A stretch of 31,778 nt of DNA, taken from positions 1 through 31,778 of IMG/VR virus record IMGVR_UViG_3300029267_001574. One strand, 5' to 3'. The notes beneath the pieces are model-generated. The model saw only the letters and a program-made list of their open reading frames with translations. It was not told the origin of the DNA and did not search any database. The position numbers and the translations under genes are program-made. This stretch comes from a virus. Of this stretch, positions 1 to 31,778 are shown one piece after another. The first letter of the stretch is position 1. Each line of letters opens with the position of its first letter.

Positions 1-366
1 CCCGACACTGGCCCGACCGTGGGGAGTTGTCTGGGGATTGCGCCTGGGCGATTCAGGACCCTCGACGTACAGAATGTAGTCAAGGGATCCTTTGTGGAGG
101 TTCTGGTCTCCAAGGACGACGATCGGGAAGTGGTAGAGGACTTGTCCAGCCTGCGCAGGCACATGGTCGAGTGCTTTGATCTTGGCTGGGATACCGCGCT
201 GGTGGTGTGCCTTGCAAAGGCGCTGGGCACTGCCGTGGCCTTTGACGTCCGCAGCGACGGCAGGACGAAAGCCACGAAGGAAGACTGGATCAAGGTGGCC
301 AAGAGGCTAACGGTATGGGTGCGCCCGTACTGGCCGACGCACGGGCCGCAAGGGGGTCAGAGGTGA
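1..366 (+). CDS. Unknown phage protein, 5' end cut by window
   Basis: The reading frame is open from the first base of the window, so the gene probably begins outside it; a GTG at 19 is an internal alternative start. About 120 residues are visible. They are mixed alpha/beta in character, with a basic C-terminus that contains several tryptophans (KEDWIKVAKRLTVWVRPYWP). I recognise no family, signal peptide or membrane segment. The stop overlaps the GTG start of the next gene by four bases (GTGA), so the two are probably translated together. By position this is the tail of the rightward early operon that carries the methyltransferase and MazG-like genes. No function is proposed. Confidence 0.6.
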   Translation, partial: PDTGPTVGSCLGIAPGRFRTLDVQNVVKGSFVEVLVSKDDDREVVEDLSSLRRHMVECFDLGWDTALVVCLAKALGTAVAFDVRSDGRTKATKEDWIKVAKRLTVWVRPYWPTHGPQGGQR

Positions 367-560
367 CCATTCAAGAGCGCGTAAAAGCCCTGGTGTGCCG
401 CCGCCCAGGTGTCCATCAGGACGAGATTTACAAGGCATTTCGCCGTGGGAGGCATCGACTGACTAGGGCGCAGGTGATCAATGCGCTGATCAATCTGAGC
501 AATGGCGGGACGATCCGATACCGCGGTCGTCGAGCGTGGCCACAAGGGGGCGAGGGGTGA
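363..560 (+). CDS. Small winged-helix-like DNA-binding protein
   Basis: A 65-residue basic protein. The GTG at 363 overlaps the upstream stop as GTGA and is preceded by a GGGGG-rich Shine-Dalgarno stretch, so it is preferred to an upstream ATG at 315. The pattern is that of a compact winged helix-turn-helix: an N-terminal helix (TIQERVKALVCRRPG), a second helix (HQDEIYKAF), then RAQVINALINLSNGG and a basic strand IRYRGRRAW that would be the wing. Such proteins in phage early operons are often regulators or replication accessories, but nothing here tells which. It lies three bases before the methyltransferase. Confidence 0.55.
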   Translation: MTIQERVKALVCRRPGVHQDEIYKAFRRGRHRLTRAQVINALINLSNGGTIRYRGRRAWPQGGEG

Positions 561-563
561 GGG

Positions 564-1181
564 ATGAGGGATGCGTTGGATAGATACTACACCCCACGGT
601 GGGTGATAGATGTGCTGCTGGAGCATCTGAGTCGTGTCGTGAACGGCAGGCCGTTGGCATTTAAGATTCAGGGCAAGATCTTGGAGCCTTGCTGTGGTGA
701 TGGTCGCCTCGCTGATGCGCTGCGCGCGGGTCTTCACAGGACCGTGGTGACTGGTGACTTGGATCCTGCGGTGACGGCAGACCATCATTGGGATTTCAGG
801 GTGGCCGTCCAGCGAGGCGATGTGATGCCCGGTGAATACGGTGCCGTGATCACCAACCCTCCTTATCGAGACGTCTCTACCTATGTGGAGGCCGCTCTTT
901 CGGTCAGCCGATTTGTGGCCATGCTGATGCCCATCACATGGCAGGAGCCAACGAGCGACCGGTGGTGCATCTGGAGGGACGCGCCGCCGCACTGGGTGCT
1001 GGTGCTGCCTCGACCAAGTTTTCGGGGCAATGGCACCGATGCGCGCACCGTCGCCTGGTACGTCTGGGATGGTGTGTGTGACCGAACCGAATTGATTGTA
1101 GTCGACCCACAGAAGAGGTCGGCAGGCCGAGACGTTATGAAGGGGCAGCTATCTTTGATGGAGAACGAACATGGACTTTGA
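564..1181 (+). CDS. Orphan DNA adenine-N6 methyltransferase
   Basis: A 205-residue SAM-dependent methyltransferase. The N-terminus YYTPRWVIDVLLEHL (8-22) is the usual TP-containing motif X region. ILEPCCGDGRLADAL (39-53) is the AdoMet-binding motif I. ITNPPYRD (96-103) carries the catalytic NPPY of N6-adenine enzymes. Order X - I - IV without an obvious separate target-recognition domain fits small phage MTases of the gamma or Dam-like type. No restriction endonuclease lies next to it, so it is an orphan. A role in protecting phage DNA from host restriction or in marking DNA is inferred. The start ATG at 564 follows GAGGGGTGAGGG; the gene overlaps the next by 11 bases. The recognition site cannot be read from sequence. 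Confidence 0.85.
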   Translation: MRDALDRYYTPRWVIDVLLEHLSRVVNGRPLAFKIQGKILEPCCGDGRLADALRAGLHRTVVTGDLDPAVTADHHWDFRVAVQRGDVMPGEYGAVITNPPYRDVSTYVEAALSVSRFVAMLMPITWQEPTSDRWCIWRDAPPHWVLVLPRPSFRGNGTDARTVAWYVWDGVCDRTELIVVDPQKRSAGRDVMKGQLSLMENEHGL

Positions 1182-1947
1182 CGAATACCAAGAAAGCGCC
1201 TTGCGCACCGCAAAGGTGGCAGACCGTCGCAGCCTCTTGACCGAGTGCGCCCTGGGTCTGGCGGGTGAGTCCGGTGAGGTGGCAGACCACATCAAGAAGC
1301 ACCACCACCAGGGCCATGACTTGAGCATCGACCATCTAAAGGCCGAGCTGGGCGACGTGCTTTGGTACGTGGCCACCATGGCGCGGGCGCTGGGGCTGGA
1401 CCTGTCCGAGGTGGCCTCGGCCAACGTGGCCAAGCTCAAAGCCCGCTACCCTGACGGCTTCGATGTGCAGCGCAGCAGAGATAGGGGTGATGGTCTGCTG
1501 GGGGATGACCAGGCTGTGGAGGCTGCAAAGGCGGTCGTCGTGGACCGGGAAGTGGTGGAGGTTGATGGGGTTCACTGGGTGCGAATGTCGGGCCGGCGTG
1601 TTGGTGGTGTGTGGCAGGCGACGTGGCTGGCCATCGATGATGAGAGGGTGAAGCTTCACAGGATGGGCGAGATGTGGACCCTGAAGCGCGGCGACGTGTC
1701 CTATGGGGTCTTCGACTCGTCGGGCATTGCTACGGTGTATGCGGCACGCAAGGCGCTTCGCTGGGCCGCAGTTCGCCTGAACACGCCGGGCTGGGATAAT
1801 GACTTCAAAGACAGTCTGCCCAAACAGCCTGTAGAGCCCAGCGAACCGCCCACGGTGGCAATCCCATCGGAGCGCCTGGAGCTTGAAGAGCGCTGGGCAG
1901 AGCATGTTAAGGGCGCTGGGCGCGTGGTGGTTAAAGGGGGCACATGA
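1171..1947 (+). CDS. MazG-like NTP pyrophosphohydrolase with unknown C-terminal domain
   Basis: 258 residues in two parts. Residues 1-98 are a clear all-alpha NTP pyrophosphatase of the MazG-like family: GLAGESGEVADHIKK (29-43) and KAELGDVLWYVATMA (57-71) hold the E-x2-E and E-x2-D metal ligands, followed by ANVAKLKARYPDGF. Family members hydrolyse (d)NTPs to the monophosphate and PPi; phage MazG proteins have been linked to nucleotide-pool cleaning or host alarmone levels. Residues ~105-235 form an extension I cannot assign (VDGVHWVRMSGRRVGGVWQA, then KALRWAAVRLNTPGWDNDF), rich in beta strands and aromatics. It starts inside the methyltransferase gene, so the two are co-expressed. A second NTP pyrophosphatase lies at 25249-25743. 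Confidence 0.82.
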   Translation: MDFDEYQESALRTAKVADRRSLLTECALGLAGESGEVADHIKKHHHQGHDLSIDHLKAELGDVLWYVATMARALGLDLSEVASANVAKLKARYPDGFDVQRSRDRGDGLLGDDQAVEAAKAVVVDREVVEVDGVHWVRMSGRRVGGVWQATWLAIDDERVKLHRMGEMWTLKRGDVSYGVFDSSGIATVYAARKALRWAAVRLNTPGWDNDFKDSLPKQPVEPSEPPTVAIPSERLELEERWAEHVKGAGRVVVKGGT

Positions 1948-1982
1948 ACCCCCTGCATGACAAGAGCGTCAAGGATGTATAG
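1944..1982 (+). CDS. Possible 12-codon mini-ORF after the MazG-like gene
   Basis: An ATG at 1944 overlaps the TGA of the MazG-like gene (ATGA) and follows AAAGGGGG, a fair ribosome site. It would encode MNPLHDKSVKDV and stop at a TAG that lies inside the promoter-like -10 sequence at 1978. It may be only a way of clearing ribosomes from the junction, or chance. Confidence 0.25.
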   Translation: MNPLHDKSVKDV

Positions 1983-1983
1983 G
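1957..1983 (+). promoter_or_regulatory. Weak sigma70-like promoter before terminase genes
   Basis: ATGACA (1957-1962), a 15-base spacer and TATAGG (1978-1983) resemble -35 and -10 boxes just before the packaging genes. The spacer is short and the match imperfect. It marks the one non-coding gap between the early genes and the terminase, where a late promoter would be expected. Confidence 0.3.
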
Positions 1984-2002
1984 ATTCAATAAGGAGGCCA
2001 GA

Positions 2003-2047
2003 ATGAACAGCCAGACAGACAGCGTGGAAAGCCGGGGGTCGAAGTGA
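2003..2047 (+). CDS. 14-residue leader peptide coupled to terminase small subunit
   Basis: An ATG at 2003 has one of the best Shine-Dalgarno sequences in the window (AAGGAGG at 1991-1997) and opens a 14-codon frame, MNSQTDSVESRGSK. Its stop overlaps the GTG start of the terminase small subunit gene (GTGA at 2044-2047). The terminase GTG has no comparable site of its own, so this short frame probably feeds ribosomes onto it. The frame also contains a 23-base sequence repeated near the start of the gene at 21159. If the peptide is not real, the strong ribosome site may serve a terminase start by reinitiation. Confidence 0.5.
   Translation: MNSQTDSVESRGSK
2010..2032 (+). repeat. 23-bp repeat, copy 1
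   Basis: Begins GCCAGACAGACAGC and ends GTGGAAAGC. Differs at one base from 21167-21189. Both copies start 7-8 bases after a start codon, in different reading frames. Confidence 0.65.
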
Positions 2048-2595
2048 GTGGCGACGGCGCACCCAAATCCTGGCAGCGACAGCCAATGGACACCGACAAG
2101 TCCTACAGGGTGTTCTGCGCCTACCGGGACATGGGGCGTGGTAGGACTCTTGCCGCTGCTGCTGTTGAGGTGTATGGGGACAAGGGGCTCAAAAAGGGTT
2201 CAAAAAGGGCCCAGGAGGCCCCGAACCACGTTCGCAACTGGTCGTCTGCACACGATTGGGTGGAGCGCGTTCGAGCCTGGGACGCCCATCAAGAAGAGAT
2301 TGCCCAGCGCGCTTTTGAAGAAGAGGCCGAGGAACGCAGCAGGCTTCAGGCAGCGGCAGCGGTGCAGGTGCAGACCCTGGCTTTGCTTCGTCTTCTGGAG
2401 GTCTTGCCCGACGCCGACGCCAAAGAGGCGCTGGCGGCGTGGAGGGATGCCGCCAAGCTGGAGCGCGCCATTCGCGGCCAAGCGTCTGAGGTGACCGGTC
2501 ACCAGCATCAGATCACCCCGAAGATCGACCCCCGCACTCTCTCACCTGCCACGCTGCGCGAGCTGGCCCAGAAGCTGGAGTCGGGCAATGACTGA
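2044..2595 (+). CDS. terS: Terminase small subunit
   Basis: 183 residues, directly upstream of and overlapping the large terminase subunit by 8 bases. That position is the strongest argument, as small subunits vary greatly. The first ~75 residues look like a DNA-binding region (SYRVFCAYRDMGRGRTLAAA then HVRNWSSAHDWVERVRAWD, the W-ERVRAWD pattern common in small terminases). Residues ~85-150 form a long charged and alanine-rich helix suited to oligomerisation, and the C-terminus (TLSPATLRELAQKLESG) is a short helix of the kind that contacts the large subunit. The GTG at 2044 is chosen for its overlap with the leader frame; ATG at 2089 is an alternative. It would recognise the packaging site and load the motor. 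Confidence 0.8.
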   Translation: MSGDGAPKSWQRQPMDTDKSYRVFCAYRDMGRGRTLAAAAVEVYGDKGLKKGSKRAQEAPNHVRNWSSAHDWVERVRAWDAHQEEIAQRAFEEEAEERSRLQAAAAVQVQTLALLRLLEVLPDADAKEALAAWRDAAKLERAIRGQASEVTGHQHQITPKIDPRTLSPATLRELAQKLESGND

Positions 2596-4102
2596 AGACG
2601 CCGCGCTGGATCTGGGTCTGACCGCTGACGTGGCCGTGGCCTGTCTGGTGCACAATAGCCTCGCCGAGTACACCAAGCGCATCTGGCCCATCATCGAGCC
2701 GGGGATTGACCTCGATTGGTCGTGGCACCACGACTTGATCTGTCGGAAGCTGGAGGCTGTCACCCGTGGTGACCTGAAGCGCCTGGTCATCAACATCCCG
2801 CCCGGAACGATGAAGTCCATCTTGGTGTCTGTCGCGTGGCCGTCGTGGGAGTGGCTGCGCACACCGGAGAAGCGCAAGCTCTACCACGCGCAGGACGGCG
2901 ACTTGATGCGCCGCGACTCCATGAAGGCCCGTCTGATCATCGAGAGCGACCTGTACCGGGGGTGGGTGTCGGCGCTGGCATCTTTGGATGGCGTGGGGCC
3001 CTGGACCATGGCACGCGACCAGAACGCCCAGGGCCACTTCAGGAACACCCGGCAGGGCTTCAGGCAGTGTGTGTCCCGCAAGAAGTCCACGGGCAAGCGT
3101 GGCGATGACACTGTGGTGGATGACCCCCACGATGCCAGCGACGTGATCATGGGTGAACCGGCGCGCATTGCCGAGCGCATGAAGGAAGTAACCGAGTGGT
3201 ACCTCAAGGTCTTCAGCTCTCGCGTCAATGACAAGCGCAAAGCGGCCCGCGTGGTCATCCAGCAGCGCGTCCACGAGATGGACTTGGCCGGGGCGCTGAT
3301 CAAGCGTGGGTGGCCCCATCTGGTCTTGCCCATGGAATACGAGCCCGACCACCCGCACGTTCATCCTGAAGACCCACGCACCGAGCCCGGCGAGCTTCTA
3401 CACCCAGAGCGCTTTGGTCGTGCCGAGGTCGAAGAGATTAAGCTGGAGCTGGGCGACGATTATGACGGTCAGTATCAGCAGCGCCCCAATCCTAAAGGCG
3501 GGCGCCTCTTCAAGGCTGACCACGACACCGAAGACCGGCGCTACAAGGTCACCCCCGAAGTCCAGGCCCAGCTCTGCGACGAGATTGCAATCTTTATGGA
3601 TTGCTCTTTTAAGGGGCTCGACACCAGCGACCCGGTGGCCATCCATGTCTGGGGCCGCAAGGGGCCGCACCGCTACCTGCTGGACCGTGAGGCAGACAAG
3701 CGCGGCATGAAGGCCACCCAGCAGATGCTGCGCAATGTCGCGGCGCGCTGGCCAAAAGCGACCCTGAAGCTCATTGAAGACAAGGCGAATGGACCGGGGG
3801 TTATTGACGTCCTGGGTGACGAGATGACCGGCGTGGTGGGCTTCAGCCCCGACAAGCACGGGTCCAAATGGGAGCGCGCCAAAATCGCTTCCATCCTTTG
3901 GGAGGCTGGGCAGATACACCTGCCCACCAGCGAAAACGCACCCTGGGCGTCCACGGTCATCTCCGAGTGGGTGGGCTTCCCCGGTCGACCGCATGATGAA
4001 GATGTGGACTGCCTGTCGATGATGGTCATTCGCTGGCGCAACACAAACACAAACCCGCGCCCCACCGTGGGCAAGCGACGAATGGGGACTGAGCAATGGT
4101 GA
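2588..4102 (+). CDS. terL: Terminase large subunit (packaging ATPase and nuclease)
   Basis: 504 residues, normal for the family. The N-terminal ATPase carries a Walker A-like loop NIPPGTMKS (69-77) and a Walker B DDTVVDDPHD (173-182). QQRVHEMDLAGALIKRGW (225-242) is the coupling segment seen in large terminases. The C-terminal RNase H-like nuclease shows its acidic residues in IFMDCSFKG (D338), LIEDKANG (E397/D398) and HDEDVDCLS (D470-D474). The P-loop ends in MKS where textbook P-loops have GKS/T, as in several TerL lineages. The protein docks on the portal, pumps DNA into the prohead and cuts the concatemer. It overlaps the portal gene by 7 bases. Confidence 0.95.
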   Translation: MTEDAALDLGLTADVAVACLVHNSLAEYTKRIWPIIEPGIDLDWSWHHDLICRKLEAVTRGDLKRLVINIPPGTMKSILVSVAWPSWEWLRTPEKRKLYHAQDGDLMRRDSMKARLIIESDLYRGWVSALASLDGVGPWTMARDQNAQGHFRNTRQGFRQCVSRKKSTGKRGDDTVVDDPHDASDVIMGEPARIAERMKEVTEWYLKVFSSRVNDKRKAARVVIQQRVHEMDLAGALIKRGWPHLVLPMEYEPDHPHVHPEDPRTEPGELLHPERFGRAEVEEIKLELGDDYDGQYQQRPNPKGGRLFKADHDTEDRRYKVTPEVQAQLCDEIAIFMDCSFKGLDTSDPVAIHVWGRKGPHRYLLDREADKRGMKATQQMLRNVAARWPKATLKLIEDKANGPGVIDVLGDEMTGVVGFSPDKHGSKWERAKIASILWEAGQIHLPTSENAPWASTVISEWVGFPGRPHDEDVDCLSMMVIRWRNTNTNPRPTVGKRRMGTEQW

Positions 4103-5511
4103 TGATGGTGGAGCGCGCTTTGCCCGTGGTGGAGATGCGCGAGAATCAAGACATCGTGGAGTACCGAGGCAAAAAGCTGACGGTGCCCAAAAGCGAGTGG
4201 GGCCAGCGGCAGGGGGTCAATGGGATCCCCTTCAGCGTCGGACGCCAGCAGCTTGAATACAACCGCGCGTTGACGCCTTACAAGGCCCGTGGCATCTCCA
4301 GCGACGTGGGGCTCTATTGGAAGCTGGGATCGTCAATGCCGATGGTGCGTGACGCCTTGATGGGCATGACCGCGGCCATCACCGCCGCACCGTGGCGCCT
4401 GGAGCTTGGCGAGCTGCCGACGTACTGGCGAGGCAACGCCGCCGCCTCGGCCGCGCGCAAACGCCAATACGAATACTGCTCATACGTATGGTCGAAGTGG
4501 ACCGCGACGGGGGCCGACTATGCCTGGGCGCAGTGGCTGGCCGACGTGCTGCGGTTTTCCTTCGTGTGTGGCTTCTACACAGGGGAGAAGACCGCCAGCC
4601 TGGTGCCCATCAAGGTAGACGGCAAGATGCGCCGCCTGCTTTGCCCCGATCTGCCGTGCGCGATCATGCCGTGGACCGTGGACGAGTGGGTCTTCAAGGA
4701 CAATCCCGACACGGGGATGCTTGCCCTGGTCCAGCGGACATACAGCCAGACAGACAGCTTCGGCGGCTCCGGTGCCGGTGAGGTGGTCATTCCCTGGGAG
4801 CGCGTGTGCCATGTGCCGCTTCTGCCCGCGTCCCCTGGGGATCTGGAGGGGTCAAGCGCCCTGCGCCCAGCCCAGGTGCTGCTCAAGGCCAAGCAGAAGA
4901 CTTTGCAGCTCCAGACGCTGGGCACCGAGGTGAATACCCTGGGCCTGCTGGTGGTCAAGGAGGACGGCGCGCACCCCATGACCGAAGATGCGCGCGCTGA
5001 AATCAAGATGCAATTGGACGGGCGCACCGCCGAGCAGGTGGCGTACCTCATGCTGCCACCCGGCGATCATAAGGTCGAATACATCCGGCCCAGCGACACG
5101 GTGCCCGACCTCTCCAAGCAGATCGAGACGCTTGATCAGCAGATCGGCAAGGCGCTGGGCAATGTGCACCGCTTGATGTCTCTGCAAGGCACCGGCTCAT
5201 TTGCGGCCCGCAAGGACGCCAGCGGCGAAGCGCGAGACACCATGGATTTCTGGGCGGACATCCCGGCGCGTGCCGCCGAGCGCATCCTTCGTCAATTCAT
5301 CGAGATCAATTTCCCACTGGACGCAGCGCTGGGGATGGTCTTCACTCCCAATGTCAATCACGCGGCCGTCGAAGAACTGGACAACGAGAGCAGGATGCGC
5401 ACGCTGGCGGGCTACGCCAATGCCGGGCTGATCACCCCCAGCCCTGAAATCCAATCGCAGCTGCGCAAAGAGCTTGACCTGACGACGACCATCAGCGACG
5501 GCGAATCATGA
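4096..5511 (+). CDS. Portal protein
   Basis: 471 residues immediately after the large terminase. The layout is that of DUF935/Mu gp29-like portals: an N-terminal MQ-rich strand region, a wing domain around GLYWKLGSSMPMVRDALMGM, a crown/stem region with LLKAKQKTLQLQTLGTEVN, and a C-terminal long helix near RAAERILRQFIEINFP followed by NVNHAAVEELDNESRMRTLA. It forms the dodecameric ring at the special vertex through which DNA enters and to which the tail attaches. ATG codons at 4102 and 4105 are possible alternative starts, as the first ATG has a weak ribosome site. A MuF-type minor head gene, usual after DUF935 portals, is absent here. Confidence 0.88.
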   Translation: MVMMVERALPVVEMRENQDIVEYRGKKLTVPKSEWGQRQGVNGIPFSVGRQQLEYNRALTPYKARGISSDVGLYWKLGSSMPMVRDALMGMTAAITAAPWRLELGELPTYWRGNAAASAARKRQYEYCSYVWSKWTATGADYAWAQWLADVLRFSFVCGFYTGEKTASLVPIKVDGKMRRLLCPDLPCAIMPWTVDEWVFKDNPDTGMLALVQRTYSQTDSFGGSGAGEVVIPWERVCHVPLLPASPGDLEGSSALRPAQVLLKAKQKTLQLQTLGTEVNTLGLLVVKEDGAHPMTEDARAEIKMQLDGRTAEQVAYLMLPPGDHKVEYIRPSDTVPDLSKQIETLDQQIGKALGNVHRLMSLQGTGSFAARKDASGEARDTMDFWADIPARAAERILRQFIEINFPLDAALGMVFTPNVNHAAVEELDNESRMRTLAGYANAGLITPSPEIQSQLRKELDLTTTISDGES

Positions 5512-5520
5512 CGCGATGCG

Positions 5521-5556
5521 CCAGCGCTTGACGCGGTGTGTCGCGCTGGTTAGAAA
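5521..5556 (+). promoter_or_regulatory. Promoter-like site with operator-type inverted repeat before the head genes
   Basis: TTGACG (5528-5533), a 17-base spacer and TAGAAA (5551-5556) form a sigma70-like promoter in the only sizeable gap (89 bases) of the head region. A 7-base inverted repeat, CCAGCGC (5521-5527) and GCGCTGG (5543-5549), flanks the -35 box and could be an operator. The alternative reading, a weak hairpin, is possible, but no T-tract follows that would make it a terminator. Confidence 0.45.
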
Positions 5557-5566
5557 TAAACTGTCT

Positions 5567-5593
5567 GGTCAGTATTGAATCTGACCGGGAGGG
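5567..5593 (+). promoter_or_regulatory. Hairpin abutting the ribosome-binding site of the 5601 gene
   Basis: GGTCAG (5567-5572) and CTGACC (5581-5586) can pair around an 8-base loop. The Shine-Dalgarno sequence GGGAGGG (5587-5593) begins right after the stem, 7 bases before the GTG start at 5601. The stem could modulate access of ribosomes to the first head gene after the portal. Confidence 0.35.
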
Positions 5594-5600
5594 TTTTTAG

Positions 5601-6314
5601 GTGGCCAGGACAAAAGCACAGACTCCCGCACCCAAGCGGGATAGGCTGAAGGGCTCAAAGCGCAATCCCGCCGGGTCTGCGTCGTCGTCTCGTGGCGGCA
5701 TCAAGATCGACGCCGCCACCGAGAAGGCCCTAAAGAACAAAATCGATGGCCTCAAAGGCAAGCGCAAGGTGGACGTGGGCACGCTCAAGGCGGTATATCG
5801 CCGGGGCGCTGGCGCCTTCTCCACTTCGCACCGTCCAGGCATGAGCCGCGGCCAGTGGTCGATGGGGCGGGTCAACGCCTTCCTGCGGCTGCTGAAGTCG
5901 GGCAAGCGTAAGGAGTCTTACACCACCGACTTAGACCTTCTGCCCAAAAGTCACCCGCAATCCACAAAGCAATCCGAGAGCGTAAAGCCTACAAAGTCCA
6001 TGCAATCCGCCGCGCGCTGGGCGCTCAAGGTGCGCGCCGAGGCGCCGCCCAGCAAGCGCGCCGGAACACCTGTGGGCATCGCCCGCGCCCGTGACCTGGC
6101 AAGCGGTCGCCCCCTGTCGAAGGCCACGCTCAAGCGGATTAGAGACTACGTGAACCGGGCCGCTGGCACCGCCGATGCCGCCCCTGCACGGGATGAGCAA
6201 GGTGATGTGCCAAAGGCCAAGCAAGCCCTGGGCCTGTGGGGTGCGCGACGGGGCAAGGCTGTGGCACGCTGGGCTGCTGGTAAAATCCGCAAGATGGAGG
6301 CGCGCAAGCAATGA
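5601..6314 (+). CDS. Basic two-domain head-region protein of unknown function
   Basis: 237 residues, strongly basic. The GTG start is set by GGGAGGG seven bases upstream. The N-terminal ~35 residues are low-complexity and lysine-rich. Residues ~40-100 form a domain with VDVGTLKAVYRRGAGAF and GQWSMGRVNAFLRLL. Residues ~135-237 form a second domain with AARWALKVRAEAPPSKRAGT, GIARARDLASGRPLSKATLK and a final ALGLWGARRGKAVARWAAGK. Both segments recur in phage head operons, usually near the capsid protease, and I know of no proven function. Its place between portal and protease, where MuF-like minor head proteins often sit, suggests a virion or assembly role. It overlaps the protease gene by four bases (ATGA). 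Confidence 0.65.
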   Translation: MARTKAQTPAPKRDRLKGSKRNPAGSASSSRGGIKIDAATEKALKNKIDGLKGKRKVDVGTLKAVYRRGAGAFSTSHRPGMSRGQWSMGRVNAFLRLLKSGKRKESYTTDLDLLPKSHPQSTKQSESVKPTKSMQSAARWALKVRAEAPPSKRAGTPVGIARARDLASGRPLSKATLKRIRDYVNRAAGTADAAPARDEQGDVPKAKQALGLWGARRGKAVARWAAGKIRKMEARKQ

Positions 6315-7405
6315 CCGCCGCGTATATCCTCGACGACATGCCCGCCCTGCCCGCAAAGCCCAAAGACCCGCTGGGCCGTCATGTGGCGTGGGTGGCGCTG
6401 ACCCAGGCGCCGGGATTCATCTACGGCGACAAAGCCTTCAAGGTCGATGAAGACTTCATTAAGGCCCAGATCGACGGATACCGCAGCCTGACCCGCGCCG
6501 ACTACACCGCGCCTGTCCTACGAGAGCACAGCCGCAACGGCGAGCGCAGCGGCGATGTGCTGGCGCTGGCGTCAGTGGTCATTGACGAGCGCCTGACGCT
6601 GATTGGCGCGCTGGCTCTGTCCGACCCCGAAGCACAAGACAAAATCAAGCGCGGCGAGATCAAGTACGTCTCGCCCAGCTTTGGCCCGATATCCGACGAC
6701 CGGGGCCGTGACTTTGACTTTGCCTTGCGCGAGGTCTCTTTGGTCGCAGCACCCCACCAGAAACACTTGAGCCCCGGCGTGACCCATGTCCTGGGCAAGG
6801 AGCAAGGCGAGATGGACAAAGACAAGTCCACCGAGCAGGAGGTCTCGACCTCCGACGCGCCCAGCGTGGAAGAGCGCCTGGGCAAGATGGAAAGGGCGAT
6901 GGCCGAGCTTTTGGAGCTGAAGCAGCTCATGGAAGCCGCCATGATGGAAGGCGACGACGAAGAGGAGGAAGTGGAAGGCCCGCAGATGGGTGAGCCCGCC
7001 GAATCCGCCGAAGTCGTCAGCCTGCGCGAGCAGGTGGAGGCGCTGGAGGTCGAGCGTGACCGCGCCGTGTGGGAGCAAGGCGACCGCCAAACCCTGACCG
7101 TCACCCCTGACCTGGACGCGCTGCTCTTCGCCGCGTGGCGCGCGGACAAAGAGGGCATGAGCGCCATCCTCTCCGAAGCCGCCAAAGCCGCACCGGCCAA
7201 AGAAAAGCAGCCAGCCAAGCAGCCTGCACCGACCCCCGTGTCGCCGTGGTTTCGGATGTCTGAAGCGGCCCCCGTGCCGGGCGGCGATGACATCAAGCCC
7301 GCGACGGACGCCGACCTTTCGGCCAAATCGCTGGAGATGGCCGAAGGCGATCAAGTCAAGGCGCTCAAAATCTACAAGGAACTCAAGGCCCAGCGCCTTC
7401 ACTGA
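6311..7405 (+). CDS. Capsid maturation protease fused to scaffold
   Basis: 364 residues. The first ~165 resemble Mu gpI-type head proteases: a histidine in PVLREHSRNGERSG (H73), a serine in IKYVSPSFGP (S121 or S123, the SPxF motif), and a closing LREVSLVAAPHQK typical of prohead proteases. A flexible charged linker follows, then an acidic, helical region (EERLGKMERAMAELLELKQL, the acidic run near 215-225, and SLREQVEALEVERDRAVWEQ) with heptad character, as in internal scaffolds. The C-terminus is helical and basic. As in Mu, where the scaffold is encoded in the 3' part of the protease gene, an internal start for free scaffold is possible, for instance the ATG at 6811. It processes the prohead before DNA entry. 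Confidence 0.8.
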   Translation: MTAAYILDDMPALPAKPKDPLGRHVAWVALTQAPGFIYGDKAFKVDEDFIKAQIDGYRSLTRADYTAPVLREHSRNGERSGDVLALASVVIDERLTLIGALALSDPEAQDKIKRGEIKYVSPSFGPISDDRGRDFDFALREVSLVAAPHQKHLSPGVTHVLGKEQGEMDKDKSTEQEVSTSDAPSVEERLGKMERAMAELLELKQLMEAAMMEGDDEEEEVEGPQMGEPAESAEVVSLREQVEALEVERDRAVWEQGDRQTLTVTPDLDALLFAAWRADKEGMSAILSEAAKAAPAKEKQPAKQPAPTPVSPWFRMSEAAPVPGGDDIKPATDADLSAKSLEMAEGDQVKALKIYKELKAQRLH

Positions 7406-20053: not shown

Positions 20054-20860
20054 ATGGTCTTCATCACACCGGGCATCTCGCCGGGCGCTGGTGGTGTCAC
20101 GACGGCAGCAAGCCTTGACGCCGCCCTGACCGCCGCGCGCGCCAGCGCCAGCTCCGGCGATCTCTACGAAGACACCAGCACGGGGATCGTCTACGCCTAT
20201 CTCGACGAAGGCGGCGGCATGCTGATTCCGACCTTCGCGTCTAATGTCATCAGCGAGTACATCGACAACGCCACCGGCGATGCATTCCTCAAAGAGGGTG
20301 ACACCGAGGCCGACTTCACCGGGCGCGGAATCACAGTGCAAGAGGCTGTGGCGGGTGGCGACGTCAGCAAGACCGCTGGCAATGACTGCATCATCACCAC
20401 CGATGGAACGGCGGTGGGCTCCAGCGCCTCCATCCGCTTCGCTCCCACGACGATGCCGTCAAGGCTCGCCATCATGGCGCGCATCAGCTCATACACCGAA
20501 GATGGCACGAACACGGTGCGTTTTATTATCCGCGACGGTAACAAGGACTTCCGCGTCGGCTTTGAGGCGAGCAACATCCTGACGCTCCAGTCCAGCGGCA
20601 CTGAAGTGGGCGGCGGTCGTGTCACCACTGATGGCAACGCCTTTTGGATCTTCTGCATGATCGACCTCAGCAGCGCCAACGGCGTGCAGTACCTGGTCAA
20701 CTTGAGCGACCCCACGCGCCAGATGCGCGCATCGGTGCAATCTGACCTCTCGGCCAACGCCGCCACGCTGATCATGCTTGGCGTCGCTCTTTCCGCGCGC
20801 ACAGCCACTGCCGAAATCCGGGCCAAAGAGGTTCATTTCTTCAAGGTGGATGCACCATGA
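20054..20860 (+). CDS. Probable tail fibre or tip adhesin-like protein
   Basis: 268 residues from the ATG at 20054, chosen because GGAGG (20043-20047) lies six bases upstream; a TTG at 20048 is less likely. The first ~75 residues (GDLYEDTSTGIVYAYLDEGG) look like the short linker-and-chaperone-free stem of fibre proteins. The remaining ~190 form a single beta-sandwich domain (TVRFIIRDGNKDFRVGFEAS, FWIFCMIDLSSANGVQYLVN) of the concanavalin-like type seen in carbohydrate-binding modules. Receptor binding is inferred from fold pattern and position only. Confidence 0.45.
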   Translation: MVFITPGISPGAGGVTTAASLDAALTAARASASSGDLYEDTSTGIVYAYLDEGGGMLIPTFASNVISEYIDNATGDAFLKEGDTEADFTGRGITVQEAVAGGDVSKTAGNDCIITTDGTAVGSSASIRFAPTTMPSRLAIMARISSYTEDGTNTVRFIIRDGNKDFRVGFEASNILTLQSSGTEVGGGRVTTDGNAFWIFCMIDLSSANGVQYLVNLSDPTRQMRASVQSDLSANAATLIMLGVALSARTATAEIRAKEVHFFKVDAP

Positions 20861-21162
20861 TGATCTACAAGCACGATCCGACCATCGACGGCAACCCGGC
20901 CAAAGTCATCAAAGCATGGCTCCCTCGCGGCGCATGCGTGATCGCTACCGCCGACGACTCTCGCACCTTGTGGGTGGGGTCTGCCGAATACCGCAAGGTG
21001 GCCGCTGATGGGATCATTTCTATCGAGGCCGGGTTGGTGCTGGAGGATTTGACCGCCGCCCAGCTCAAGGCGCTGGCCAAGAGCAAAGGCGTCAAGACCA
21101 CCGGGAAGAAAGCAGATCTCGTGTCTCGCGTCCGCACGGCCCTTGCCCTGGGGTCCAAATGA
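20857..21162 (+). CDS. Small protein with C-terminal SAP/HeH-type helix-extension-helix motif
   Basis: 101 residues, ATGA overlap at both ends. The first ~60 residues form a short beta region (GACVIATADDSRTLWVGSAE). The end, LTAAQLKALAKSKGVKTTGK then KADLVSRVRTAL, matches the SAP/HeH pattern of two helices joined by an extended loop (L--LK-LAK--G---GKKADLV-RV). That motif binds nucleic acid in other proteins and is also common at the ends of phage structural proteins, where its role is not known. Here it lies between the adhesin-like protein and the lysis genes. Confidence 0.6.
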   Translation: MMIYKHDPTIDGNPAKVIKAWLPRGACVIATADDSRTLWVGSAEYRKVAADGIISIEAGLVLEDLTAAQLKALAKSKGVKTTGKKADLVSRVRTALALGSK

Positions 21163-21359
21163 GTCGGCCAGACAAACAGCGTGGAAAGCTGTTGCACACA
21201 GGGGTGGCCCTTGTGCTTGCGCTGGTGCTGTCGGCGCTGAGCTACAAGGCCGCGCGCTGTGGTGGCCCGGTGTACGAGGTCGAGGATTATGCAGGCGTCG
21301 TCGTCGGTGAAGATCTCAAAGACTCCCTGCGGGATGCGGGGGTGGAGGTGGTGGAGTGA
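21159..21359 (+). CDS. Small membrane protein at the head of the lysis cassette
   Basis: 66 residues. A basic N-terminus (SRPDKQRGK) precedes one hydrophobic span (about 12-32, HTGVALVLALVLSALSYKAA), then a short acidic periplasmic tail with one cysteine. One membrane span with a basic cytoplasmic end right before the endolysin gene fits a holin, pinholin or inner-membrane spanin, and the short acidic tail does not settle which. It overlaps both neighbours by four bases. Its first codons contain a 23-base sequence also found near the terminase start (2010-2032), in another frame. Confidence 0.55.
   Translation: MSRPDKQRGKLLHTGVALVLALVLSALSYKAARCGGPVYEVEDYAGVVVGEDLKDSLRDAGVEVVE
21167..21189 (+). 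repeat. 23-bp repeat, copy 2
   Basis: Begins GCCAGACAAACAGC and ends GTGGAAAGC. It lies in the first codons of the small membrane protein gene that opens the lysis cassette. Confidence 0.65.
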
Positions 21360-22651
21360 GCAAAGGACTGAAGACATTTTTATGGGTCGATGGCCAGCGC
21401 CCCCGGCCTTCCACGCTGGCTGGCTGGCTGGAGTGGCTGGTGGGTCTGGCACTGTCGAGGGCGATCTTGCTGCTCAACGACACCAGGGAAGAGGGCGAGA
21501 CGTGGACGGACGATGACCTCATCGCGGCAACCGCTGGTCTCCAGGATCGCGGCATGAAGGCCGTGTGGATGTGGTGGGCCACCTCGACGCGCGCCGCCAT
21601 CGACGAGCAGATCGCCGACCTCGACAAGTTCTTCACGATGGGCGCCCGCCCCGATGGGCTCCAGTGGGACTGCGAAGAGCACTGGGGCCGCGCAGGTGTG
21701 GATTTGGCGCCGTATCTCTCGGAGCGTATCTTGTGGCTGCTGGACAAGCACGGGTGCTCGCACCTACCGCAGGTAGCCAGCGCCCAGGGCCTGCATTACG
21801 TCGAGGTGTCGATCACAGCGATCGTCGGCAAATGGAAGGACAAGACCATGCGCGCCCAGGATGCCGCCGTGTGCCAGACTGATGCCTTCACAGCGGGATA
21901 CACCCAGGCTTATCTCTTCTTCAATCCCAAGCCTGGGCACTGGTCCCGCAATCTTCCCAGGCAGCCCGGCGCCATCCAGAGGGGCACATGGGAGGCGTGG
22001 CACAAGATGCTCGATGACGAGTACCACGACGAGCCGTTGAACGGGCTCTACAACGGCCTCGATCTGATCTACATGGGCAACGCGGCGCATCTCCAGCGGA
22101 TCCCCGGCGTGTCTGGCCTCGACGGCATGCGCTGGGGCGTGGAGGCCTGTCAGGTGCTAGAGTCTACCCACCCTGACACCTTCGCTGGTGGCGGGTGGTG
22201 GTCTGGCAAGCACGTCAAAGGCAACGATGGCAAGGCTCGCATTGTTCAGGGTGCCGCAGGGTCTGAGCACATCGGAGCACCGTCCATGCCCCCCTCGGCG
22301 CCTTTCGATCTCGCCCGCGCCGTGGCCTTCAATGCCCGGCGCGATCACTGGGAGAGCATCCCCGATCAAGCCCTGGAGCGGTGGCCCGGTCTCAAAGCCC
22401 ACCACACCAGTGAAGCCTTTGCCGAGGCCGCAGCGGCATACCAACAGGCGCACGGGCTGACCCTCGATGGCAAGCTCGGCACGGGCACCCTGGGTCACAT
22501 GATTGAACTCTTTGGCCCTAAGCAATCCCCGATGATGGCGTTCATGGATGCGGTGTGCGCGGTCCAGGGATCCAGCGCTAGAATGTTCCGCCCCAGCGGC
22601 GTAACGATCACCGACGACGACATGAACGCGAACGACTGGAGGGTGGCATGA
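21356..22651 (+). CDS. Endolysin: glycosidase-like domain plus peptidoglycan-binding domain
   Basis: 431 residues, GTG in a GTGA overlap. The first ~275 residues read as a TIM-barrel-like hydrolase: strand-helix repeats, GLQWDCEEHW (101-110) with D105, E107 and E108 as possible catalytic acids, and an aromatic YTQAYLFFNPKPGHWSR. I cannot place it in a named glycoside hydrolase family. Residues ~352-385 (EAFAEAAAAYQQAHGLTLDG, then LGTGTLGHMI) are a typical PG_binding_1 domain (YQ...GL-LDG-LG-GTL). There is no signal peptide, so release would need a holin. The last codons, TGG AGG GTG GCA TGA, fall within the tandem duplication that begins at 22637. Confidence 0.75.
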   Translation: MSKGLKTFLWVDGQRPRPSTLAGWLEWLVGLALSRAILLLNDTREEGETWTDDDLIAATAGLQDRGMKAVWMWWATSTRAAIDEQIADLDKFFTMGARPDGLQWDCEEHWGRAGVDLAPYLSERILWLLDKHGCSHLPQVASAQGLHYVEVSITAIVGKWKDKTMRAQDAAVCQTDAFTAGYTQAYLFFNPKPGHWSRNLPRQPGAIQRGTWEAWHKMLDDEYHDEPLNGLYNGLDLIYMGNAAHLQRIPGVSGLDGMRWGVEACQVLESTHPDTFAGGGWWSGKHVKGNDGKARIVQGAAGSEHIGAPSMPPSAPFDLARAVAFNARRDHWESIPDQALERWPGLKAHHTSEAFAEAAAAYQQAHGLTLDGKLGTGTLGHMIELFGPKQSPMMAFMDAVCAVQGSSARMFRPSGVTITDDDMNANDWRVA

Positions 22652-22870
22652 TGCGACTGATTTTGATTCTCGTGGCGCTCTGCACGCTGGCTGGCTGCGC
22701 TGGTCAGCAGAGCGTAGACTGGGCCGGTCTGGTGGTGGATGCAAAACCCGCATTGGAGGGTGGCATGATGCGACTGATTTTGATTCTCGTGGCGCTCTGC
22801 ACGCTGGCTGGCTGCGCTGGTCAGCAGGGCGTAGACTGGGCCGGTCTGGTGGTGGATGCAAAGCCCGCAT
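22637..22870 (+). repeat. Perfect-frame 117-bp tandem duplication (two copies)
   Basis: Copy 1 is 22637-22753 and copy 2 is 22754-22870. They differ at two bases only (A22711/G22828, giving Ser to Gly, and A22746/G22863, silent). The unit is 39 codons long and holds the end of the endolysin gene, a ribosome site (GGAGG), the double ATG, a whole lipoprotein signal peptide and the first mature residues. The near identity shows a recent event. Confidence 0.97.
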
Positions 22871-23019
22871 TTGAGACGGGCGAGTGTGGCCCCCAGGCGC
22901 GGTGGACCAAGCAGCTGCAAGTGTCGGACGGCGCCGAGGTGGTGGCGTCCGTGGTGGTGAGACAGCCTTGTGACAAGGGCAAAGCCGAGGGCGTGGACGA
23001 TGACGGAAAAAACCAATGA
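22648..23019 (+). CDS. Lysis-cassette lipoprotein (outer-membrane spanin-like) with duplicated signal peptide
   Basis: 123 residues from 22648, or 84 from the ATG at 22765. Each copy of the duplicated unit begins with MMRLILILVALCTLAGCAGQ, a lipoprotein signal peptide with lipobox LAGC. The mature part has two further cysteines (GECGPQ; RQPCDKG) and a charged C-terminus. Small lipoproteins beside an endolysin are usually outer-membrane spanins, which join an inner-membrane partner to disrupt the outer membrane. The second copy keeps its own GGAGG and double ATG, so both a long and a normal-length product may be made. In the long form the second signal would lie inside the mature chain as a membrane-like segment. 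Confidence 0.7.
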   Translation: MMRLILILVALCTLAGCAGQQSVDWAGLVVDAKPALEGGMMRLILILVALCTLAGCAGQQGVDWAGLVVDAKPAFETGECGPQARWTKQLQVSDGAEVVASVVVRQPCDKGKAEGVDDDGKNQ

Positions 23020-23275
23020 TGAGCTGGAGACGGGGACAAAGGCAGATGCGGCGCAGGCGGTGTCGTCGCCGTCGCCGCTCGACCTGGACGGCGACGGCAA
23101 CATCGAGCAGAACGAAACGATTGTCGCTGTGGCGCTGATCGTGGCGGCGCTGCTGGTGGGGGCGGGCGTCCTCTATGCCATGAGCGCGGACGTGATCACG
23201 CTGGAGCAGCTGGGCGGCGTGCTGGCCTCGATCTGGACCACGGTGCACACCGGCCAGAAAGCCCTAGGCAAATGA
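23000..23275 (+). CDS. Holin-like membrane protein with EF-hand calcium loop
   Basis: 91 residues from the ATG at 23000, inside the end of the lipoprotein gene; an upstream in-frame start at 22970 is less likely. A soluble N-terminus ends in a textbook 12-residue EF-hand loop, DLDGDGNIEQNE (28-39), with Asp at 1, 3 and 5, Gly at 6, Ile at 8 and Glu at 12. A membrane span follows at once (TIVAVALIVAALLVGAGVLY, about 40-60), then an amphipathic tail (TLEQLGGVLASIWTTVHTG). Size and place suit a holin or lysis regulator. A single calcium loop joined directly to the membrane span is unusual, and calcium control of lysis is speculative. Confidence 0.6.
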   Translation: MTEKTNDELETGTKADAAQAVSSPSPLDLDGDGNIEQNETIVAVALIVAALLVGAGVLYAMSADVITLEQLGGVLASIWTTVHTGQKALGK

Positions 23276-30859: not shown

Positions 30860-31778
30860 GCTACAAGCCCCTCTACAGCATGAGCGCCGAGCGGGCGCTG
30901 ATTGGATCGGTGCTGATGGACACCACCGTGCTTGACGCCGAGGCCGCAGACATCACCGCTGACGACTTCTACGCTCAAGCCCACCGGGCAGTGTGGGCGG
31001 CGATTAAGCAGCTCCAGGCCGAGCGCCAGCCGGTGGATATCGTGACGCTCTTTGAGGCCCTGGGTATCGAGGGCGTGGAGCGCATCGGCGGTATGGACGT
31101 GCTGTCGGGCTTTACTTCGGCCACGCCCAGCGCCGCCAATGCCGCCGGGTACGTCGCCGTGGTCAAGCGGTGGAGCGCCCTGCGCAGGATCTCCGCTGGG
31201 TGTCGTGACACAATGGCGTCCATCGAGACAGACCCCGGTGTGGACCCCACCGCCGTGGTGCTGGGCCTGACAAAGAAGATGGACGCCGTGTCTGGCAGCT
31301 TCGTCTCCAAGCGCTGCGCAAGGGTCGGGGATAGGCTCAAGGGCTGGTATGAGCGCTTCCTGGCGAAGGCTGACGGCGAGGAAGAGCCCGGTGTGTCGTG
31401 TGGCTTTCCTGATCTTGACGAGAGGCTGGGGCGCCTCGGCGCAGACCGCCTGATCATCCTCGCCGCGCGCCCGGCGATGGGCAAGACGTCTTTGGCCCAG
31501 CAGGTTGCAGCCAACGTCGCCCGCAGCGCCGGGGCCGTCTACTTCGCCAGCCTCGAAATGAGCACCGAAGACCTCATTGACCGGCAGATGGCCCAGGAGA
31601 CGCGGATTGGGGTGCAGGACGTGGCGCGGGGCCGGATGCGCCCTGACCAGATGACGCGGATCATCCAAGCGGCGAAGTCGATCAAGGATCTCCCGCTCTA
31701 CTACGACGACGACCCCGACGCCACGATTTCGGCGGTGTGTGCCAGGGCGCGCGCCCAGCACCGGCAGGTCGAGGGGGG
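30856..31778 (+). CDS. DnaB-type replicative helicase, 3' end cut by window
   Basis: 307 residues are visible from ATG 30856 (ATGA overlap). The N-terminal domain (SAERALIGSVLMDTTVLDAE, then DDFYAQAHRAVWAAIKQLQA and VDIVTLFEALG) matches DnaB. The RecA-like motor begins with CGFPDLDERLGRLGADRLII and Walker A AARPAMGKTSLAQQ (203-216), with FASLEMS (230-236) as motif 1a. Walker B and the rest lie beyond the window. It unwinds DNA at the phage fork, loaded at the origin by the initiator encoded just upstream. The gene is open to the last base. Confidence 0.93.
   Translation, partial: MSYKPLYSMSAERALIGSVLMDTTVLDAEAADITADDFYAQAHRAVWAAIKQLQAERQPVDIVTLFEALGIEGVERIGGMDVLSGFTSATPSAANAAGYVAVVKRWSALRRISAGCRDTMASIETDPGVDPTAVVLGLTKKMDAVSGSFVSKRCARVGDRLKGWYERFLAKADGEEEPGVSCGFPDLDERLGRLGADRLIILAARPAMGKTSLAQQVAANVARSAGAVYFASLEMSTEDLIDRQMAQETRIGVQDVARGRMRPDQMTRIIQAAKSIKDLPLYYDDDPDATISAVCARARAQHRQVEG

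Follow-up and report, generated by a model that had tools for sequence, protein, structure and literature searches.

Two described phage systems and one protein family provide the closest comparisons for the locus analysed here. In the dual-start holin of lambda, S105/S107, a single gene is read from two starts that lie two codons apart, and the roles of the two products are proven. In-frame tandem duplication has been described in phage EfV12-phi1, in which 1.8-kb duplications of the tail fibre arose in response to host resistance, and in which reads and amplicons with differing copy numbers were obtained (PMC6365445). The o-spanins of two-component spanins (Rz1/LysC-like) are small lipoproteins for which a spanin survey gives the lipobox consensus [LVI][ASTVI][GAS]C, and the survey regards signals of this type purely as membrane anchors (PMC6139136).

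The locus lies in an uncultured virus record of 31,778 bases, which we refer to as the window. Like the lambda holin, it has one gene with two starts, from which two membrane-directed forms are possible products; unlike the holin, its starts are 39 codons apart and were created by a duplication that is known from sequence. It shares with EfV12-phi1 an in-frame, head-to-tail duplication within a phage gene, but there the duplication is large, affects a tail fibre and answers host resistance, whereas here it spans 117 nt across a gene start. As with an o-spanin, the product is a small lipoprotein with a consensus lipobox encoded beside a candidate lysis gene; it differs in that the mature part has no spanin-family match and the signal peptide alone is similar. 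The literature searched yielded no description of a phage gene with a duplicated lipoprotein signal, which is not proof of absence.

No other repeat in the window comes close in strength to the 117-nt array. Two independent tools place the adjacent head-to-tail copies at identical coordinates (Table 1), and Tandem Repeats Finder returns a period of 117, 2.0 copies and a score of 457. The copies differ at 2 of 117 positions (1.7%). One mismatch (22711/22828, A/G) falls in codon position 1 and turns AGC into GGC, that is, Ser in copy 1 into Gly in copy 2; the other (22746/22863, A/G) falls in codon position 3 and is silent (AAA/AAG). Both are located within the right 43 nt of the unit, and the longest identical run between the copies, 74 nt, occupies its left end. 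With one copy taken out, exact direct repeats in the window reach no more than 19 nt, which excludes a chance origin of the pair. Allowing up to 3 mismatches, a 24-nt pattern taken from the unit matches the window at the two copies only, and 0 of 100 shuffles. In 1.75 Mb of other contigs, a terminase-selected sample searched with Tandem Repeats Finder at a score of at least 100, a period of at least 50 occurs in one array only, with copies 75% alike, and nothing comparable to the 117-nt pair was found; near-identical arrays of such size are uncommon in this sample. The initial annotation had described two 117-base copies differing at two bases, in a unit of exactly 39 codons that keeps the frame. 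Both the direct-repeat search and Tandem Repeats Finder bear this out, and a unit length that is a multiple of three supports an in-frame tandem duplication.

Table 1. Features at the duplicated gene start (positions in the window)
Feature	Coordinates	Strand	Basis
Upstream gene, 431 aa, GTG start, candidate cell-wall hydrolase/endolysin	21356..22651	+	ORF and weak PG_binding_1 match
Copy 1 of the 117-nt tandem unit	22637..22753	+	Direct-repeat search, Tandem Repeats Finder, sequence reading
Ribosome-binding site GGAGGG, copy 1, 4 nt before ATG 22648	22638..22643	+	Sequence; -9.8 kcal/mol
Lipoprotein ORF with two starts: 123 aa (first) and 84 aa (second, 22765)	22648..23019	+	ORF; LAGC lipobox in both copies
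Copy 2 of the 117-nt tandem unit, 98% identical	22754..22870	+	Direct-repeat search, Tandem Repeats Finder
Ribosome-binding site GGAGGG, copy 2, 4 nt before ATG 22765	22755..22760	+	Sequence; -9.8 kcal/mol
TTGAG following copy 2, an imperfect counterpart of the TGGAG that opens the unit; possible short homology at the junction	22871..22875	+	Tandem Repeats Finder array reaches 22875

The unit opens in the last codons of the upstream gene (TGG AGG GTG GCA TGA) and carries that gene's stop codon, the GGAGGG ribosome site, ATGATG, the lipoprotein signal MMRLILILVALCTLAGC and ∼18 further codons. The upstream stop (TGA, 22649-22651) is inside copy 1, where the first lipoprotein start overlaps it as ATGA; copy 2 contains the ribosome site, ATGATG, the lipoprotein signal and the beginning of the mature protein. 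This inventory agrees with the earlier listing of a stop, a ribosome site, a double ATG and a full lipoprotein signal within the unit, and the ORF lengths match the 84- and 123-residue forms named there, which are possible products of the gene. Pairing with the anti-Shine-Dalgarno sequence is predicted to be equal at both starts, at -9.8 kcal/mol, near the strongest 1% of random sites. The hydrophobic segment that would be internal to the longer form is predicted to be membrane-compatible on a simplified scale (about -1.3 to -2.0 kcal/mol). Predicted RNA folding at both starts and across the unit is no better than that of shuffles (z 0.13, -0.80 and 0.07), and for this reason we dismissed the idea of a regulatory RNA hairpin at the start.

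Both copies of the signal have the features of a bacterial lipoprotein: a positively charged N-terminus, a hydrophobic stretch and an LAGC lipobox that fits the consensus. The gene product had been called spanin-like, a description that the profile comparisons do not sustain. Profile matches of the 123-aa protein are to spanin, Cor and unknown lipoprotein families and lie mostly across one or the other of its signal peptides. With two signal copies the best spanin PHROG E-value is 1e-4 and with one it is 0.43, and the significance of the spanin match is therefore attributable to the presence of two signal peptides. The mature part, 65 aa after the signal, has no PHROG match up to E=1, and a relationship of the periplasmic part to a known o-spanin family, which would identify an o-spanin, was not seen. 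Duplicated signal peptides push up profile scores, a small annotation trap. Open reading frames and family profiles revealed no overlapping i-spanin near the lipoprotein gene; the search for a partner returned a 66-aa ORF (21159-21359) with an N-terminal hydrophobic segment and no family match. A resemblance between DYAGVVV in this ORF and DWAGLVV in the lipoprotein was rejected as chance, with 19% of shuffles being equally good.

The endolysin assignment of the upstream gene likewise proved less firm than first proposed. It derives from one sub-threshold PG_binding_1 match at residues 354-382 of the 431-aa protein (E=0.003, 18.2 bits against a curated cut-off of 23). The two AlphaFold models made without relatives were unusable: one has a pLDDT of 49, and the other, a single-sequence model of the upstream protein, a pLDDT of 35.7. 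Position and gene content make a lysis cassette plausible. Between the structural-type genes and the candidate lysis genes, 20857-21162 encodes a protein of 101 aa whose C-terminus carries a SAP domain (Pfam E=1.2e-9), a motif that usually binds DNA. Downstream of the lipoprotein start, 23000-23275 encodes a 91-aa protein with an EF-hand-like motif (DLDGDGNIEQNE) preceding a single hydrophobic segment and no family match; this is possibly a holin-like gene.

The duplicated gene start is a real feature of an ordinary kind. We consider it to be a tandem duplication that arose by slippage or short homology and has been tolerated as near-neutral, with no special function seen, and place the probability of this explanation at about 0.72. 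A single event of replication slippage or short-homology recombination would have doubled a stretch that runs from the last upstream-gene codons, across the lipoprotein signal, to the first residues of the mature part. Copy 2 is followed by sequence beginning TTGAGACG, while the unit itself opens with TGGAGGGT, so that both ends of the stretch share an imperfect T[G/T]GAG. This junction fits slippage or short-homology recombination, though it is too short to serve as proof of the mechanism. With a length divisible by three and a full translation start within it, the unit breaks neither gene, and the duplication would be tolerated for that reason. The upstream gene retains its end, and copy 2 restores the original ribosome site and start for the 84-aa lipoprotein. 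Initiation at copy 2 would yield the ordinary lipoprotein, and initiation at copy 1 a 123-aa precursor that contains a second, internal hydrophobic signal. The two-copy state would be prone to revert via recombination between the 74-nt identical runs. In addition to the junction, the uniqueness of a pair with two differences, the occurrence of the stop, ribosome site, ATGATG and LAGC lipobox in both copies, the equal predicted strength of the ribosome sites and predicted RNA folding no better than that of shuffles argue for a tolerated duplication, which is most likely near-neutral. Counting against it, the searches of viral contigs, phages and plasmids gave no single-copy relative that would establish the direction of change, and the two differences, one of which changes an amino acid, show that the two-copy form is of some age or originated between diverged strains, and this leaves room for selection.

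Selection for expression is an unlikely alternative, in which the two copies persist through their effect on expression: two ribosome sites would increase lipoprotein synthesis or shift its timing, or the 123-aa form would inhibit or alternate with the 84-aa form, somewhat as in dual-start holin/antiholin pairs. The equally strong predicted ribosome sites are consistent with this, as is the predicted membrane compatibility of the internal segment, with which the topologies of the 123- and 84-aa forms could differ; at 1.7% divergence between copies, moreover, the two-copy form cannot be shown to be transient. The RNA, however, has no special structure, and no conservation is seen in relatives. 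Among viral contigs, no relatives were found of the lipoprotein or of its neighbours, the upstream gene and the 91-aa gene downstream, and the exact downstream-flank pattern gave no usable match. Phage DNA and protein records gave nothing usable for the locus, the upstream protein or the lipoprotein (one insignificant match, E=0.5), and plasmids gave nothing usable for the locus DNA. The upstream protein was not found in 35 records of related viruses or in bacterial genomes, 7 in one set and 398 from a single phylum in another, in a search that had no positive control. A relative covering the duplicated locus, and hence a single-copy ancestor or sister, was not found in viral contigs, phages or plasmids. 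An effect of the duplicated start on the amount or timing of the lipoprotein, as the initial annotation suggested, is possible but conjectural.

Terminase relatives led to two close contigs, L003 and L004, whose coverage is the terminase side and the join of the window's ends only. L003 shows 2 differences from the window in 6,486 bases (0.03%), and L004, a related strain, is 93.7-98.7% identical (1.3-6.3% different), in both cases outside the duplicated locus. Positions 1-8196 of L003 link window positions 31656-31778 to 1-6486 across 1,587 bases absent from the window. L003 thereby joins the right and left ends of the window, giving a circular map of ∼33,365 bases of which the window is ∼95%. 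The end-bridging stretch measures ∼943 bases in L004 (788-1730) and 1,587 in L003 (124-1710), so its length varies between strains. Near the terminase gene, 1171-1947 encodes a protein with a MazG nucleotide pyrophosphohydrolase domain (Pfam E=6.5e-14).

These contigs bear on the age of the duplication, which the initial annotation had taken to be recent unless recombination keeps the copies uniform. The two copies diverge by 1.7%, compared with 0.03% between the window and L003 and 1.3-6.3% between the window and L004, the latter two values being taken over other parts of the genome. Recency is uncertain, since the divergence between the copies much exceeds that from L003, and the two-copy state is not necessarily fresh. 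Either the copies may have been gathering changes since before the window and L003 separated, or unequal crossing-over may have occurred between already differing strains; gene conversion would bias any age estimate.

Two further explanations seem improbable to us, and to a similar degree. The first is an assembly artefact, in which there is one true copy, or two strain variants with a two-base difference were joined. The record is an uncultured virus contig, and related strains such as L004 exist, so that the two differences could be strain polymorphisms. Against this, longer k-mers or paired short reads can resolve a 74-nt identical run, assemblers collapse such repeats more often than they create them, and the close agreement with L003, although outside the locus, indicates that the assembly is good where it can be checked. 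The second is a homogenised array, in which old copies are kept alike by gene conversion or repeated unequal crossing-over and the copy number varies in the population. Patchy conversion could yield the pattern of identity on the left and both differences on the right, but two differences are too few to separate clustering from chance. Least probable of all is a maintained switch with a recombination-variable copy number, in which the phage makes both the normal lipoprotein and the longer two-signal form, and the latter, with its other topology, restrains or retimes the last lysis step.

As a tolerated duplication, the locus would be of low interest unless reads or relatives reveal that both forms are maintained. 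For annotation, it illustrates how an unknown lipoprotein can come to resemble a spanin through duplication of its signal peptide. It is also a clear natural case in which a complete translation start has been duplicated and both genes have stayed intact, and, if both starts are used, it would represent a simple route for a phage to gain a second form of a membrane-directed protein.
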